A stretch of 58,150 nt of DNA from Mycobacteriales bacterium. GTDB lineage: Bacteria; Actinomycetota; Actinomycetes; JAFAQI01. The stretch is taken from positions 1-58,150 of the forward strand of contig DATJSI010000043.1 in assembly GCA_035504215.1 (NCBI GenBank). The letters are read 5' to 3'. A program made the position numbers and the translations under genes. Of the stretch, positions 15,365 through 50,092 are shown one piece after another. Positions within the stretch are counted from its first letter, which is position 1; every line of letters starts with the position of its first letter. A model generated the notes under the pieces. The model saw only the letters and a program-made list of their open reading frames with translations, did no database searches and had not been told where the DNA came from.

Positions 15365-16750
15365 CTACTCCGTGCTGGCAGTTGCAGGCCGGCGGTCGAG
15401 CTCTGGCACCGCGCTATCGGGCGCCGCCGGCAGCACCAGGACGAAGCGCGCACCGCCCAACGGTGAGTCCTCGACCCGGACGCTGCCCCGGTGCGTGTGC
15501 GCCGTTGCTCGCACGATCGCCAGGCCGAGGCCCGTGCCGCCGTCGTCGCGGGCGCGGGCGTCGTCGAGTCGGACGAACCGCTCGAACACCCGCTGCCGAT
15601 CGCGCACGGGCACACCGGGCCCGTCGTCGTCCACCCGCACCTCGATCGTCGTGCTGCCGGTCCGTACGACGTCGACGACCACCTGTCCGGCGGCGTGCCG
15701 GTTGGCGTTGGCGACCAGGTTGTCGACGGCGCGGGCCAGCGCTGGGCGATCGCCGAGGACGACGTACGGATCTGCTCGCACGAGCCCCGCGAGCTCGGCC
15801 ACGTCGACCGGCTCCGAGACCGGCAGTTGCTCGGCCTCCATCCGGGCCAGCGTGAGCAGGTCGTCGATCAGCGCGGCGAGCCGCCCGGCGTCCTCGAGCG
15901 CGCCCGCCACCAGCTCGTCCTGCCGGGCCGGGTCGCTCTGGCGGAGCGCCACCTCGAGCTGGGTGTGAAGGGCGGCGAGCGGGCTGCGCAGCTCGTGCGC
16001 GACGTCGGCCACGAACTGCCGTTCCCGGCCGGCGGCCGCGGCGAGCCGGTCGAGCATCGCGTTCAGCGTGACGGCAAGCGCGCGGATCTCGTCCTGGCTG
16101 CCGGGCAGCGGCAGCCGCACGCCGCCCGCCGGGTCGGTGACCGCCTCGGCGCCCCGGCGCAGGCCGGAGACCGTGGTGAGCGCCCTGCCGAGCAGCATCC
16201 ACAGCGTTGCGCCCACCAGCACGAGCAGCACCGGCGCCGCAATCGCGAGATAGCGACCGAGGCTGCTGAGGGTGGCGCGCTCGTCCCGGAGCGACTCGAC
16301 GACCACGACGTAGTAGGTCGCGCCGCGGACGCGGACCGGCCGGACGAGGATCCGGTTGACCCCGGTAGCCGCGGTCTGGCTGACGTTCCCGCTGCTCGGT
16401 CCGGTCCGGGCGAGCCGGGCCAGCGCGCCGGCCGGCACGAGCGGCAGGGTTCGCGACGTACCGGGGGATACGGCGAGCACCTGGCCGCGAGCGGTCAGCA
16501 CCTGAGCGCTTTGCCCTGCCTGCACCGGGAGCGTGGGTGGCAGCGCGCCCGTCGCGGTGAGGCTGGCGATGTCCGACGCGGCCGACCGGCTGGTCGAGTC
16601 GATGGCGTGCAGGCGGCTGGTCGAGAAGCCGTACAGCAGCAGGACGCTTCCGGCGGCAAGGAACACGGCGAGCGCGACCGTTGCGATCAGGGTGAGCCGG
16701 GCCCGCAGGCCCAGCCGGCTCCATCCGCGGGGAGCGCGCCAGGCCGCCAT
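15365..16750 (-). CDS. two-component sensor histidine kinase
   Basis: 461 residues: TM1 about 18-40, an extracellular sensor of about 125 residues, TM2 about 167-187, a HAMP-like linker, HisKA with the phospho-acceptor His252 in FVADVAHELRSPL, and a HATPase_c domain with NLVANANRH (N box), DDDGPGVP (G1) and GGTGLGLAI (G2). The start overlaps the regulator stop (ATGA), so the pair is co-expressed. The stimulus is unknown; the divergent envelope genes suggest cell-envelope sensing. Confidence 0.92.
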   Translation of the reverse strand: MAAWRAPRGWSRLGLRARLTLIATVALAVFLAAGSVLLLYGFSTSRLHAIDSTSRSAASDIASLTATGALPPTLPVQAGQSAQVLTARGQVLAVSPGTSRTLPLVPAGALARLARTGPSSGNVSQTAATGVNRILVRPVRVRGATYYVVVVESLRDERATLSSLGRYLAIAAPVLLVLVGATLWMLLGRALTTVSGLRRGAEAVTDPAGGVRLPLPGSQDEIRALAVTLNAMLDRLAAAAGRERQFVADVAHELRSPLAALHTQLEVALRQSDPARQDELVAGALEDAGRLAALIDDLLTLARMEAEQLPVSEPVDVAELAGLVRADPYVVLGDRPALARAVDNLVANANRHAAGQVVVDVVRTGSTTIEVRVDDDGPGVPVRDRQRVFERFVRLDDARARDDGGTGLGLAIVRATAHTHRGSVRVEDSPLGGARFVLVLPAAPDSAVPELDRRPATASTE

Positions 16751-17454
16751 CAGCCGGCCCCCGGTCCGGCCCCGGTGGCGGCGCCGGGAGTGGTGGCGAG
16801 CGGAGTGCGGTAACCCGCGCCGCGAACCGTTTCGACGATCTCGCGGCCGAGCTTGCGGCGCAGGTAGCCGACGTAGACCTCGACGACGTTCAGGCCGCGC
16901 CCCGCGTCGTGCGACTCCCAGACATGCTCGTAGAGCTCCGCCTTCGATACGACGCGCCCGGCGTTGCGGGTCAGGTAGGCGAGCAGGGCGAACTCCCGCG
17001 CCGTGATCTCGACCTCGACGCCGTCACGAAGGACCTGCCGGGTGGCGGGGTCCACCTCGACCGTGCCGGCCCGCAGCACCGTTGGGCGAGGCGCCGAACC
17101 GCGTCGGAGCAAGGCGCGGATCCGCGCAACGAGCACGACGAGGGAGAACGGCTTGGTCAGGTAGTCATCCGCTCCCTCGTCGAGCGCGTCCGCCTCGTCG
17201 TACTCGCCGTCCTTCGCGGTGAGCATCAGCACCGGCGTCCAGATCTCCGCGCTGCGCAGCCGGCGGACCACCTGGTAGCCGGAGAGAACCGGAAGCATCA
17301 GGTCGAGGATGATCGCGTCGTAGCCGCCGGCGCACGCGGCGTCCAGCCCGGACTGGCCGTCGTAGGCGACGTCCACGACATAACCTTCGTCGCTGAGCCC
17401 GGTCTGCAACGCGCGTGCCAGCCGGCGCTCGTCGTCGACCAGCAGCAACCGCAC
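16750..17454 (-). CDS. OmpR/PhoB-family response regulator
   Basis: 234 residues. The receiver domain has the acidic pocket DDE (residues 7-9), phospho-acceptor Asp51 in ILDLMLP and Lys in YLTKPFS. The C-terminal winged helix contains the effector sequences LLAYLTRNAGRVVSKAELYEHVW and VEVYVGYLRRKLG. It uses a GTG start and is transcribed first, ahead of its kinase. Four CTCTCAG repeats at 17508-17556 in the divergent promoter region are the likely binding site, typical of this class of tandem-repeat binders. Confidence 0.92.
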   Translation of the reverse strand: MRLLLVDDERRLARALQTGLSDEGYVVDVAYDGQSGLDAACAGGYDAIILDLMLPVLSGYQVVRRLRSAEIWTPVLMLTAKDGEYDEADALDEGADDYLTKPFSLVVLVARIRALLRRGSAPRPTVLRAGTVEVDPATRQVLRDGVEVEITAREFALLAYLTRNAGRVVSKAELYEHVWESHDAGRGLNVVEVYVGYLRRKLGREIVETVRGAGYRTPLATTPGAATGAGPGAG

Positions 17455-17507
17455 GCACCCAGTCTCGGGGTGCGGCTGCGCAACGCGCCACTCGTCCCGC
17501 CGGTTCG

Positions 17508-17556
17508 CTCTCAGGCTCCTCTCAGGGAGACCGCGTCGCTCTCAGCGTCCTCTCAG
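17508..17556. promoter_or_regulatory. four CTCTCAG repeats, probable OmpR-type operator
   Basis: CTCTCAG occurs at 17508-17514, 17519-17525, 17539-17545 and 17550-17556. Within each pair the repeats start 11 bp apart (7 bp plus a 4-bp spacer), the geometry of PhoP/OmpR boxes. The two pairs are 31 bp apart. The array sits between the divergent response-regulator and LolA-like genes. Confidence 0.65.
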
Positions 17557-17579
17557 CCGGCCCTTGGCATCGTGGCCGC

Positions 17580-18785
17580 ATGCCAATGAGTCCCATCGCG
17601 CGCCGTCGGGCCCGGTACCTCGTCCCGCTGGGCGCGGCAGCGATCACCGCAGCCATCGTGTTCGTCCCGCAGGCTGCTTCGGGTGAGCAGCACCCGAACC
17701 TGCCGGCCAAGTCGGCCGCGCAGCTGCTCGCTTCCCTTGAGCAGCTGAAGCTGCCGCAGTTCAGTGGCACCGTGGTCGAGACGGCGCGGCTCGGGCTTCC
17801 CGACATCGGCGACAGCGCGCTCGGCTCGGAAGTCGCGCCCGGTGGCGGCAAGACCGGCATCGAGCAGCTGGTGACGCTGCTCACCGGTTCGCACACGGCG
17901 CAGCTCGCCTATGGGGGCCCGGACAAGCAGCGGGTTGCCATCTTCCTGTCCGACCTGTCCGAGACCGACGTCGTGCACAACGGCACCAACCTTTGGACCT
18001 ACTCCAGCGACAGCAACACGGTCTCGCACAAGACGGTCGCGCGCGACAGCGAGGATACCGCGCCGCAGGCCACGACGCCGCTCAACCCGACGAAGGAGGC
18101 GGAGCAGGCACTGGCGAAGATCAACCCGTCGACGAAGGTGACGGTCGACCGTACGGCGGAGGTCGCGGGCCGCCCGGCGTACCAGCTGGACCTCGACCCG
18201 CGCGACAGCCGGGCGTTGATCAGCTCGGTGCGGATCGCGATGGACTCGCAGACCTCGATGCCGCTCCGGGTGCAGATCTGGTCGCGGAAGAACACCTCGT
18301 CGCCGGCGTTCTCCGTGGGGTTCACGAGCATCGCGATGTCCGCACCGAGCGCCTCCACGTTCGACTTCACGAAGCCGCCGAGCGCGTCGATGCAGTCCTC
18401 GCCGTTCTCTGGCGAAGGGCTGGGCGCCATCTCGCACGGTGCCGCGCAGCGCGCGTACGCGCAGCCAACGATCGGCAAGGACTGGACCGTGGTCTACGTC
18501 GACCGGGGCTCGGTCGGCACCTCGTCGTCCGCTAGGTCGGTGCGTTCATCGGTCACCCGCAGTGGAGTGTTCGGGTCGAAGAGCAAGTCGGTCGGCGTCG
18601 AGGGATCGGGCGGCGGGCCTGGTCTCGCGCAGGAGCTCGACCAGCTCGGGAGCCGCGTGCCCGAGGGACATCTGATCACGACCAGCCTGGTGACAATCCT
18701 CGTCACCAACGACAACCGGATTCTTTTCGGCGCCGTTACGCCGCAGTATCTCGAGCAGGTCGCAGCCAGCCAGGCTGCGCAATGA
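17580..18785 (+). CDS. exported LolA/RseB-like envelope protein
   Basis: 401 residues. The N-terminus is basic with a hydrophobic segment (about 12-32) serving as signal or anchor. The rest resembles the LolA/RseB fold (DUF2092-like): FSGTVVETARLGLP near 60, LTGSHTAQLAYGGPDKQRVAIF, and DRTAEVAGRPAYQLDLDPRD near 195. Relatives bind lipids or lipoproteins or sense envelope stress. It is coupled by ATGA to an ABC ATPase gene and divergent from a two-component system. An envelope role is inferred; the exact ligand is unknown. Confidence 0.7.
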   Translation: MPMSPIARRRARYLVPLGAAAITAAIVFVPQAASGEQHPNLPAKSAAQLLASLEQLKLPQFSGTVVETARLGLPDIGDSALGSEVAPGGGKTGIEQLVTLLTGSHTAQLAYGGPDKQRVAIFLSDLSETDVVHNGTNLWTYSSDSNTVSHKTVARDSEDTAPQATTPLNPTKEAEQALAKINPSTKVTVDRTAEVAGRPAYQLDLDPRDSRALISSVRIAMDSQTSMPLRVQIWSRKNTSSPAFSVGFTSIAMSAPSASTFDFTKPPSASMQSSPFSGEGLGAISHGAAQRAYAQPTIGKDWTVVYVDRGSVGTSSSARSVRSSVTRSGVFGSKSKSVGVEGSGGGPGLAQELDQLGSRVPEGHLITTSLVTILVTNDNRILFGAVTPQYLEQVAASQAAQ

Positions 18786-19771
18786 CCGCGCTGATCGAGG
18801 AAGACGCCGAGTCCGCGCCGTCCGCATCGACCACCGAGTCCCTGGTCGTCGCAACCGAAGGCCTGACCAAGCGGTTCCGATCCGGACAGGTCGCGGTGGA
18901 CCACATCGACCTGGCCGTGCCCAGAGGCGCGGTCTACGGCTTCCTCGGCCCGAACGGGTCGGGGAAGACGACGACCATCCGGATGCTGCTCGGCCTGATC
19001 CGCCCGACCGAGGGATCGGTGACGCTGGTCGGCGAGCCGATCCCGCGCGGTGCGCCGCGTGCGCTGCCGAAGGTCGGGGCTCTGGTCGAGGGCCCGGCCT
19101 TCCATCCGTACCTCACCGGTCGGGCGAACCTCGTCCGGCTCGACCGGATGGACGAGACGGCGGACCCGCGGACCCACGACGAGCGCATCGCCGATGCACT
19201 GGCTCGGGTTGGGCTCACCGCGGCGGCGGGCAAGAAGTTCCGGCAGTACTCGCTCGGCATGAAGCAGCGGCTCGGGATCGCCGCCGCGCTGTTGCAGCCG
19301 CGCGAGCTGCTGGTGCTCGACGAGCCGACCAACGGTCTCGACCCGCAGGGCACCCGCGAGGTGCGCAACCTGGTCCGCGAGCTGTCGTCGGACGGCCTCA
19401 CCGTGTTCGTGTCGAGCCACCTGCTCGCCGAGGTCGAGCAGGTCTGCACGCACGTCGGGATCATGAGCACCGGCAAGCTCGTCGTACAGGGCACTCTCAA
19501 TGACCTGCGCAGGAACGGCACAACGCAGGTCGTGGTCACGACACCCGCCGTTGAGCTGGCCGCCTCGACGATGGCTGCGCTCGGCCTCACCGATGTCGGC
19601 GCGGGCGCGCCGGAGGAGGTGCACGCGACGCTCGGCGAGGTGCTGCCGGAGGCGGTGACCGCCGCGCTGGTGCGCGCCGGCGTCCCCGTGCGGGGGATCG
19701 CCGTGACCCGACCCGCGCTGGAGGACCTGTTCGTGGAGCTCACGGGGGAGGGATTCGATGTCGTCCGCTGA
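18782..19771 (+). CDS. ABC transporter ATP-binding protein
   Basis: 329 residues: Walker A GPNGSGKTT near residue 58, Q-loop region VGALVEGPAF, the signature YSLGMKQRLGIAAAL (LSGGQ variant), Walker B LLVLDEPTNGLDP and the switch His in FVSSHLL. The C-terminal extension is typical of DrrA/CcmA-type exporters. It pairs with the permease encoded downstream (14-base overlap) and is coupled to the LolA-like gene upstream. The substrate is unknown; the divergent two-component system and LolA-like partner resemble envelope-stress or antibiotic-detoxification modules. Confidence 0.92.
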   Translation: MTALIEEDAESAPSASTTESLVVATEGLTKRFRSGQVAVDHIDLAVPRGAVYGFLGPNGSGKTTTIRMLLGLIRPTEGSVTLVGEPIPRGAPRALPKVGALVEGPAFHPYLTGRANLVRLDRMDETADPRTHDERIADALARVGLTAAAGKKFRQYSLGMKQRLGIAAALLQPRELLVLDEPTNGLDPQGTREVRNLVRELSSDGLTVFVSSHLLAEVEQVCTHVGIMSTGKLVVQGTLNDLRRNGTTQVVVTTPAVELAASTMAALGLTDVGAGAPEEVHATLGEVLPEAVTAALVRAGVPVRGIAVTRPALEDLFVELTGEGFDVVR

Positions 19772-20645
19772 AGCCGTCGGCCTCGGCGCCGGCCATGCGG
19801 TGGTCGCGCCGCGTCGCCATCGCGGCGCGCTCGGCCGGCAGCTGCGCTCCGAGCTCCGCCTGGTGTTCGGCCGTCGGCGCAACCAGATCCTGCTTGGCGC
19901 GCTCGGAGCGATCCCGCTCACCATCGGGATCGCGGTCAAGCTGGCTCCACCCGGCGGTTCGGGTGGCGGCGGCGGCCCGGAGTTCCTGAACCGCATCACC
20001 GGCAGCGGGCTGTTCCTCGTGCTGACCGCGCTGTTCCTGACGCTGAACCTGTTTCTACCGGTAGTGGTCGGGATCATTGCGGCCGACGGGATTGCCGGCG
20101 AGGCACAGAGCGGCACGCTGCGGTATCTGCTGACCATCCCGGTACGCCGCACCCGGTTGCTGTTCGTGAAGGCGTTCGGCCTCGCCGCGTACGCGTTGGC
20201 CGCAGTCGCGACGATCGCGCTGGTTGCCGCTGTTGCGGGCGTCGGGTTGTTCGGCACCGGTTCCTTCACGTTGCTCGGCGGCCAGACGGTGTCGGTCGGC
20301 GAGGGTTTGCTGCGCATCTTCGGCGTCGCGATCTACGTGTGGCTGTCGCTGTGGGGGCTGCTGGCCGTCGGGCTGCTGATCTCCGTGCTGACCGAGGTGC
20401 CGATTGCAGCGATGGCGGGCACGCTCGGCTTCGCCATCCTGTCCATCGTGCTCGACCAGATACCGCAGCTGCATGCGATCCATCCCGGCCTGATCGACAA
20501 CTACTGGCAGAGCTTCGGCACGCTGATCCGGGTCGGCCCCCACTTCGGGCAGCTCGGCCGCTACCTGCTGTTACAGGCGGTCTATGTCGCGGTCGCCGGC
20601 GGGCTGGCCTGGGCAAGGTTCAGCGACGCGGACGTGACCTCGTAG
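19758..20645 (+). CDS. ABC-2 type transporter permease
   Basis: 295 residues with about six transmembrane helices: about 45-62, 80-105, 135-160, 185-212, 215-240 and 270-288. The intracellular loop IAGEAQSGTLRYLLTIPVRRTRLLFVK region is the ABC2 membrane family hallmark. ATG 19758 lies inside the end of the ATPase gene, so the two are co-translated as an exporter. Its stop faces the convergent YunG gene 10 bases away. Confidence 0.88.
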   Translation: MSSAEAVGLGAGHAVVAPRRHRGALGRQLRSELRLVFGRRRNQILLGALGAIPLTIGIAVKLAPPGGSGGGGGPEFLNRITGSGLFLVLTALFLTLNLFLPVVVGIIAADGIAGEAQSGTLRYLLTIPVRRTRLLFVKAFGLAAYALAAVATIALVAAVAGVGLFGTGSFTLLGGQTVSVGEGLLRIFGVAIYVWLSLWGLLAVGLLISVLTEVPIAAMAGTLGFAILSIVLDQIPQLHAIHPGLIDNYWQSFGTLIRVGPHFGQLGRYLLLQAVYVAVAGGLAWARFSDADVTS

Positions 20646-49831: not shown

Positions 49832-50092
49832 GCACTGGTCGTTGGAATTGCCGTCAGCTCGCCCATCAGATGTCGTAATACAGTCGCAGGGCGCCGGCGA
49901 TGCGCGTCTGACCTGCGGTTTCGCTTCAGCGGTCGACGGCTGGATGTTCTCTGGATGTTCTGGGAGCGCTCTGAGAGTGTCCCTTGGTCGCCGCGTCGCC
50001 GGCGCGACCGCTAGCTGAAACCGAGTGGTCAGGTCCGGCAAATGATGTGGGAGCGATTCAGCCTTCACTGTGGTGGGTGTCGCAAAATGGCG
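49832..50092. other. intergenic stretch with direct repeats
   Basis: No gene is seen. It holds the right 19-bp repeat copy and a tandem repeat of TGGATGTTCT (49941-49950 and 49952-49961) with 11-bp periodicity. Confidence 0.4.
49865..49883 (+). repeat. 19-bp direct repeat, right copy
   Basis: ATCAGATGTCGTAATACAG, one mismatch to the copy at 44063-44081, same orientation, 5.8 kb apart. Confidence 0.5.

Follow-up and report, generated by a model that had tools for sequence, protein, structure and literature searches.

The window, the whole 58,150-nt stretch of DNA analysed here, carries a two-component system transcribed away from genes for a LolA/RseB-like protein and an ABC transporter (Table 1). 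The response regulator combines a receiver with a winged-helix (Trans_reg_C) domain according to Pfam, as action at an OmpR/PhoB-family operator requires. The three forward-strand genes overlap at their ends and appear to form one operon.

An AlphaFold2 model of the LolA-like product (mean pLDDT 78.9, built on a 37-sequence alignment) matched LolA, RseB and MucB in Foldseek, with E-values down to 1.5e-9. The RseB/MucB match spans nearly the whole length of the protein. TM-scores of the matches are moderate (0.5-0.58 on the target). The modelled structure is a LolA-type half-barrel fold in the two-domain layout of RseB.

Table 1. Genes and sequence elements of the locus, in window coordinates
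Feature	Position	Strand	Basis and remarks
Sensor histidine kinase (HAMP, HisKA, HATPase_c)	15368-16750	-	Pfam; kept beside the regulator in relatives
OmpR/PhoB-family response regulator, 234 aa, GTG start, recognition helix NVVEVYVGY	16753-17454	-	Pfam Response_reg and Trans_reg_C; PhoP alignment; helix survey
-10-like hexamer GAGACT	17461-17466	-	6 nt ahead of the regulator GTG; predicted leaderless promoter
Distal (upstream) pair CTCTCAG-GCTC-CTCTCAG	17508-17525	+	Lineage-specific; putative second dimer site
Proximal pair CTCTCAG-CGTC-CTCTCAG	17539-17556	+	Conserved, putative operator core, in place of a -35 element
-10-like hexamer CATCGT	17568-17573	+	11 bp past the proximal pair, 6 nt ahead of the ATG; spacing kept in relatives
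LolA/RseB-like protein, 401 aa	17580-18785	+	Pfam DUF2092, weak MucB_RseB; predicted fold
ABC transporter ATPase	18782-19771	+	Pfam ABC_tran; start overlaps the LolA-like stop (ATGA)
ABC-2-type permease	19758-20645	+	Pfam ABC2_membrane; 14-bp overlap with the end of the ATPase gene

Two pairs of CTCTCAG repeats precede the LolA-like gene

The 125-bp gap between the regulator GTG (17454, reverse strand) and the LolA-like ATG (17580) holds four exact forward-strand copies of CTCTCAG, at 17508-17514, 17519-17525, 17539-17545 and 17550-17556. Their arrangement is that given in the initial annotation: two direct-repeat pairs, with a period of 11 bp within each pair and of 31 bp, about three helical turns, from pair to pair. 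The period within a pair is the one seen in operators of the OmpR/PhoB family; since 31 bp is no multiple of 11, the four sites read as two dimer sites rather than as a continuous 11-bp array. When the gap, which has a G+C content of 72%, was dinucleotide-shuffled 2000 times, four copies never arose. Elsewhere in the window CTCTCAG occurs three times on the forward and once on the reverse strand, and the exact 18-mer CTCTCAG-N4-CTCTCAG has two occurrences in the 3.47-Mb assembly, both of them in this array. The array is not a product of chance. Both -10 elements in Table 1 are hexamer patterns marking predicted promoters; CATCGT is without the consensus first T.

The proximal pair and its spacing are conserved

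Relatives of the LolA-like protein were gathered with protein similarity as the sole criterion, from 118 relative genomes and, with an alignment as query, from a genome collection. The gene order, with kinase and regulator on one side and the LolA-like, ATPase and permease genes diverging on the other, is kept across Actinobacteria, and the regulator is divergent and close in 85 of 110 LolA-like loci. Dereplication by shared 8-mers left 62 of these 85, with kinship among them reduced, not removed.

Failure to find the repeats upstream of orthologous gene pairs had been set beforehand as the refuting outcome, and the operator proposal withstood this check. An 11-bp pair (WCAG-N7-WCAG) was found in 56 of the 62 dereplicated loci (shuffle mean 0.8, maximum 4), a strict TCWCAG pair in 33 (shuffle 0), and the pair followed by N11 and an xAnnnT hexamer in 52 (shuffle mean 0.03, maximum 1); six loci have no clear 11-bp pair. 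Distances between half-sites form one main peak, at 11 (56 loci), and 50 of the 62 likewise have 11 bp between the last pair and the -10-like hexamer. Alignment on the pair gave the consensus YTCTCAGCGTCNTCACAG-N11-CAnnAT, the hexamer lying within GCAnnATGG. Columns free of the search pattern are near-invariant too (C2 and C13 100%, G28 88%, C29 90%), and position 3 is T rather than A in 98% of the aligned promoters. In relatives the start codon often lies 6-7 nt past the hexamer, a spacing suggestive of a leaderless transcript; leaders are longer in some genera.

The distal pair is absent from the two closest relatives (L007 and L008), and four half-sites were present in 3 of 52 promoters. 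These alignments indicate that the proximal pair is the ancestral unit and the distal pair a local addition, the fourfold array being rare. Thus, of the quadruple operator originally proposed, the four copies are real, but the conserved, defining part is the proximal pair alone. The distal pair does look like a duplicate of the proximal pair, the 21-bp units agreeing at 19 positions, and is lineage-specific, as expected if the array had arisen by chance or recent duplication and had no regulatory role; the maintenance of the proximal pair across Actinobacteria at fixed geometry refutes this for that pair and leaves such an origin scarcely credible as an account of the array.

Co-occurrence of the pair with the regulator gene

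Twenty-five loci have no close regulator. In 18 of them, including all Streptomyces loci fetched, neither a regulator in the fetched flank nor the pair was found. The pair is kept in L065, L080, L123 and L124, where the regulator lies 2-3 kb upstream, and is present with no regulator in the fetched flank in L010 and L061 (apparently the same locus) and in L098. That the pair accompanies a regulator gene in cis, and is absent without one, strongly supports its assignment as a putative operator of the adjacent regulator.

On the regulator side of the gap, an xA...T hexamer stands 6-7 nt ahead of the regulator start in 53 of the 62 loci. Ten loci have a mirrored pair facing the regulator gene, several at the same N11 geometry; none was found in the window's own gap.

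Recognition helix and half-site letters

In the crystal structure of PhoP bound to DNA, residues N212, V213, E215, S216, Y217 and Y220 contact bases of TCACAGC; the 4-bp spacer of the operator is strict, and three or four repeats are bound more tightly than two (PMC4832192). Alignment of the window regulator (NVVEVYVGY) with PhoP (NVVESYVSY) showed that five of the six base-contacting residues are kept (N212, V213, E215, Y217, Y220), and the single contact change, Ser216 to Val, parallels the change of the third half-site base from A to T (TCACAG to TCTCAG). An EVY[VIL]GY helix is present in all 79 LolA-linked regulators with a readable helix. Among PhoP-like regulators, with an ESY..Y helix, 8 of 12 pairs are TCACAG/TCACAG and none is TCTCAG/TCTCAG, and CTCTCAG pairs closely precede regulators of the mycobacterial MprA type (helix NALEVY[VI]GY). 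Of 52 LolA promoters, 40 have a TCACAG-like second half-site, so the Val-to-T correlation is strict for the first half-site only. We infer from this covariation that the Ser216 change may have caused the half-site shift.

The genome of the window also encodes a PhoP-like regulator, L141, with a TCACAG-N5-TCACAG pair at about 1028-1044, some 128 bp upstream. TCACAG pairs ahead of L141 and several of its orthologues suggest autoregulation.

Could another PhoP/MprA-type regulator of the cell, and not the neighbour, use the site? Half-site recognition is nearly identical among related regulators, L141 is itself preceded by a TCACAG pair, and a further regulator, L146, has an EVFVGY helix. We consider this very unlikely, since the pair tracks the adjacent regulator gene in cis and is missing where that gene is absent. 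Conservation, linkage in cis and the match of the recognition helix together lend good support to the initial proposal that the array is an operator of the adjacent regulator.

Further sites and targets

The initial annotation had expected a new regulon, to be traced by a genome search with the 18-bp motif. In the window's own genome, the pattern TCWCAG-N5-TCWCAG is matched exactly at three places, two in the array and one upstream of L141, and with one mismatch at ten more, versus nine for the reversed control; no further site above background was found in this assembly (96% complete, 150 contigs). A one-mismatch copy of the 18-mer lies within the window (49960-49977, reverse strand). It was rejected as a second target: it falls between the ends of two converging ORFs, one-mismatch matches are at the reversed-control level, and it is probably due to chance.

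The composite element (pair, N11 and -10 hexamer) was matched 17 times in 116 genomes versus 0 times for the reversed control: 12 matches are at the LolA locus, 2 precede an LppX_LprAFG lipoprotein gene and 3 are unexplained. The two lipoprotein sites (L217 and L211, at about 1501-1535) belong to genomes G068 and G083 of one genus. In L217 the next gene encodes an MFS transporter, an arrangement like that of LprG/P55, and the site in G068 is about 10 kb from the LolA-ABC locus. The three unexplained matches (L203, L214, L215) share no clear target and may be chance or further targets. Placement of the composite element ahead of an LprG-like lipoprotein and MFS operon in this one genus is what could be expected of a genome-wide regulon with several further targets. 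In the window's own genome the sole extra exact site precedes the PhoP-like regulator and one-mismatch matches are on a par with the control, and we regard such a regulon as quite improbable. The search results do not support it and point to one local target in this genome.

Nor is the motif unique to this system: mprA genes of the mycobacterial type have the same 18-mer ahead of them, and so, with the -10 left out of the match, do genes for HtrA. The HtrA-like genes follow a kinase gene in L043 and L046 (Pfam-verified), and the 18-mer is similarly placed, judged by position, in L042, L044, L045, L047 and L053. In L039, L042-L047 and L053 the 18-mer separates a kinase gene from the gene that follows, and a -10-like hexamer comes about 10 bp after it. 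Thus, several PhoP/MprA-type systems have the half-site in common; what is largely specific to the LolA locus is the composite element alone. Away from the LolA locus, relative G021 has CTCTCAG four times in succession at an uninterrupted 11-bp period, as repeats of CTCTCAGACGC (L040/L057/L059, about 1501-1540).

A predicted activator-dependent promoter

The array is very probably a tandem-dimer operator of the PhoP/PhoB type, bound by the adjacent regulator and replacing the -35 element of a leaderless LolA-ABC promoter. Each CTCTCAG-N4-CTCTCAG pair would accommodate a dimer of the phosphorylated regulator, arranged head to tail in the manner of M. tuberculosis PhoP on TCACAGC-N4-TCACAGC. At the proximal pair (predicted -41 to -24) the dimer would occupy the place of the -35 element and recruit RNA polymerase to CATCGT; transcription would begin with, or close to, the ATG of the LolA/RseB-like gene and continue into the coupled ATPase and permease genes. 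A second dimer on the distal pair, three helical turns upstream, may strengthen or sharpen the response. The sequences directly show the repeats with their spacing and conservation, the -10 geometry, the linkage to the regulator, the helix match and the operon overlap; from these we infer binding, its dependence on phosphorylation, activation over repression, where transcription starts and what the distal pair does.

The proximal pair overlaps the -35 region, a position that could equally serve a repressor competing with RNA polymerase at the LolA-ABC promoter until released by the kinase. A repressor would allow variable placement. Here the gap to a poor -10, which has no -35 to accompany it, stays at 11 bp even between distant genera, as is characteristic of an activator in contact with polymerase. 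By its sequence geometry the element thus has the fixed placement ahead of the -10 of class-II-like activation. Activation is the more likely mode, and repression appears unlikely.

The RseB/LolA-like product leads us to guess that the kinase may sense envelope or lipid stress. More broadly, the locus may represent a widespread, undescribed actinobacterial two-component system, a dedicated regulator of envelope lipid traffic that would control an RseB/LolA-like protein and an ABC transporter through a leaderless promoter, together with an LprG-like carrier in some genera, and in which Ser216 to Val would convert TCACAG to TCTCAG recognition; this reading is tentative and somewhat more likely wrong than right. 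We found no description of a LolA/ABC-linked two-component system in the literature searched, which took in few subscription papers. For a system without description there, the analysis provides a precise conserved candidate operator and its target. It also links a two-component system to a LolA/RseB-like protein in bacteria mostly thought to be without a LolA-requiring outer membrane, and gives a straightforward way to examine how a single recognition-helix residue adjusts PhoP/MprA-type specificity.

Comparison with known systems

The proposed mechanism is known in kind, while the particular operator-target switch seems undescribed. In E. coli the pho box bound by PhoB consists of 11-bp direct repeats with CTGTCAT-like half-sites that replace the -35 element of an activator-dependent promoter under phosphate control. 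The window has the same 11-bp repeats in the -35 place, with different half-site letters.

The operator of M. tuberculosis PhoP has the same 7-bp direct repeats, 4-bp spacer and TCnCAG core (PMC4832192). It differs in reading TCACAG where the window has TCTCAG, and the window helix has Val for Ser216 and Gly for Ser219. With five of the six helix contacts, and CTCTCAG rather than TCACAGC in all four half-sites, the window system does not class as a PhoP of the M. tuberculosis type. PhoP has a broad regulon, whereas the window system appears to have one local target, and the window genome has L141 as its separate PhoP-like regulator.

An MprA operator at the mprA promoter was reportedly described by He and Zahrt in 2005, as cited in PMC3062566. 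Our comparison rests on mprA upstream sequences found here, on our recognition of these genes and on citing literature. The exact CTCTCAG-N4-CTCTCAG precedes the genes in L049-L052, which we take to be mycobacterial-type mprA genes; the recognition helix (NALEVY[VI]GY) is similar, and an envelope-stress setting may be shared. However, the window regulator is only about 43-44% identical to the L049-L052 regulators and does not class as their orthologue, MprAB is linked to HtrA/PepD where the window regulator is linked to LolA-ABC, and the HtrA promoters, as read by eye, have 10 bp from pair to hexamer versus 11 in the window. The MprA motif of C. glutamicum, TKTTAAGAAM, differs, and CutR, with a reported site of TAWATAAA, was rejected as a counterpart.

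On the target side, the predicted fold of the window protein matches both RseB/MucB and LolA, and its gene, with ABC transporter genes next to it, would be regulated by a two-component system instead of through an anti-sigma factor.
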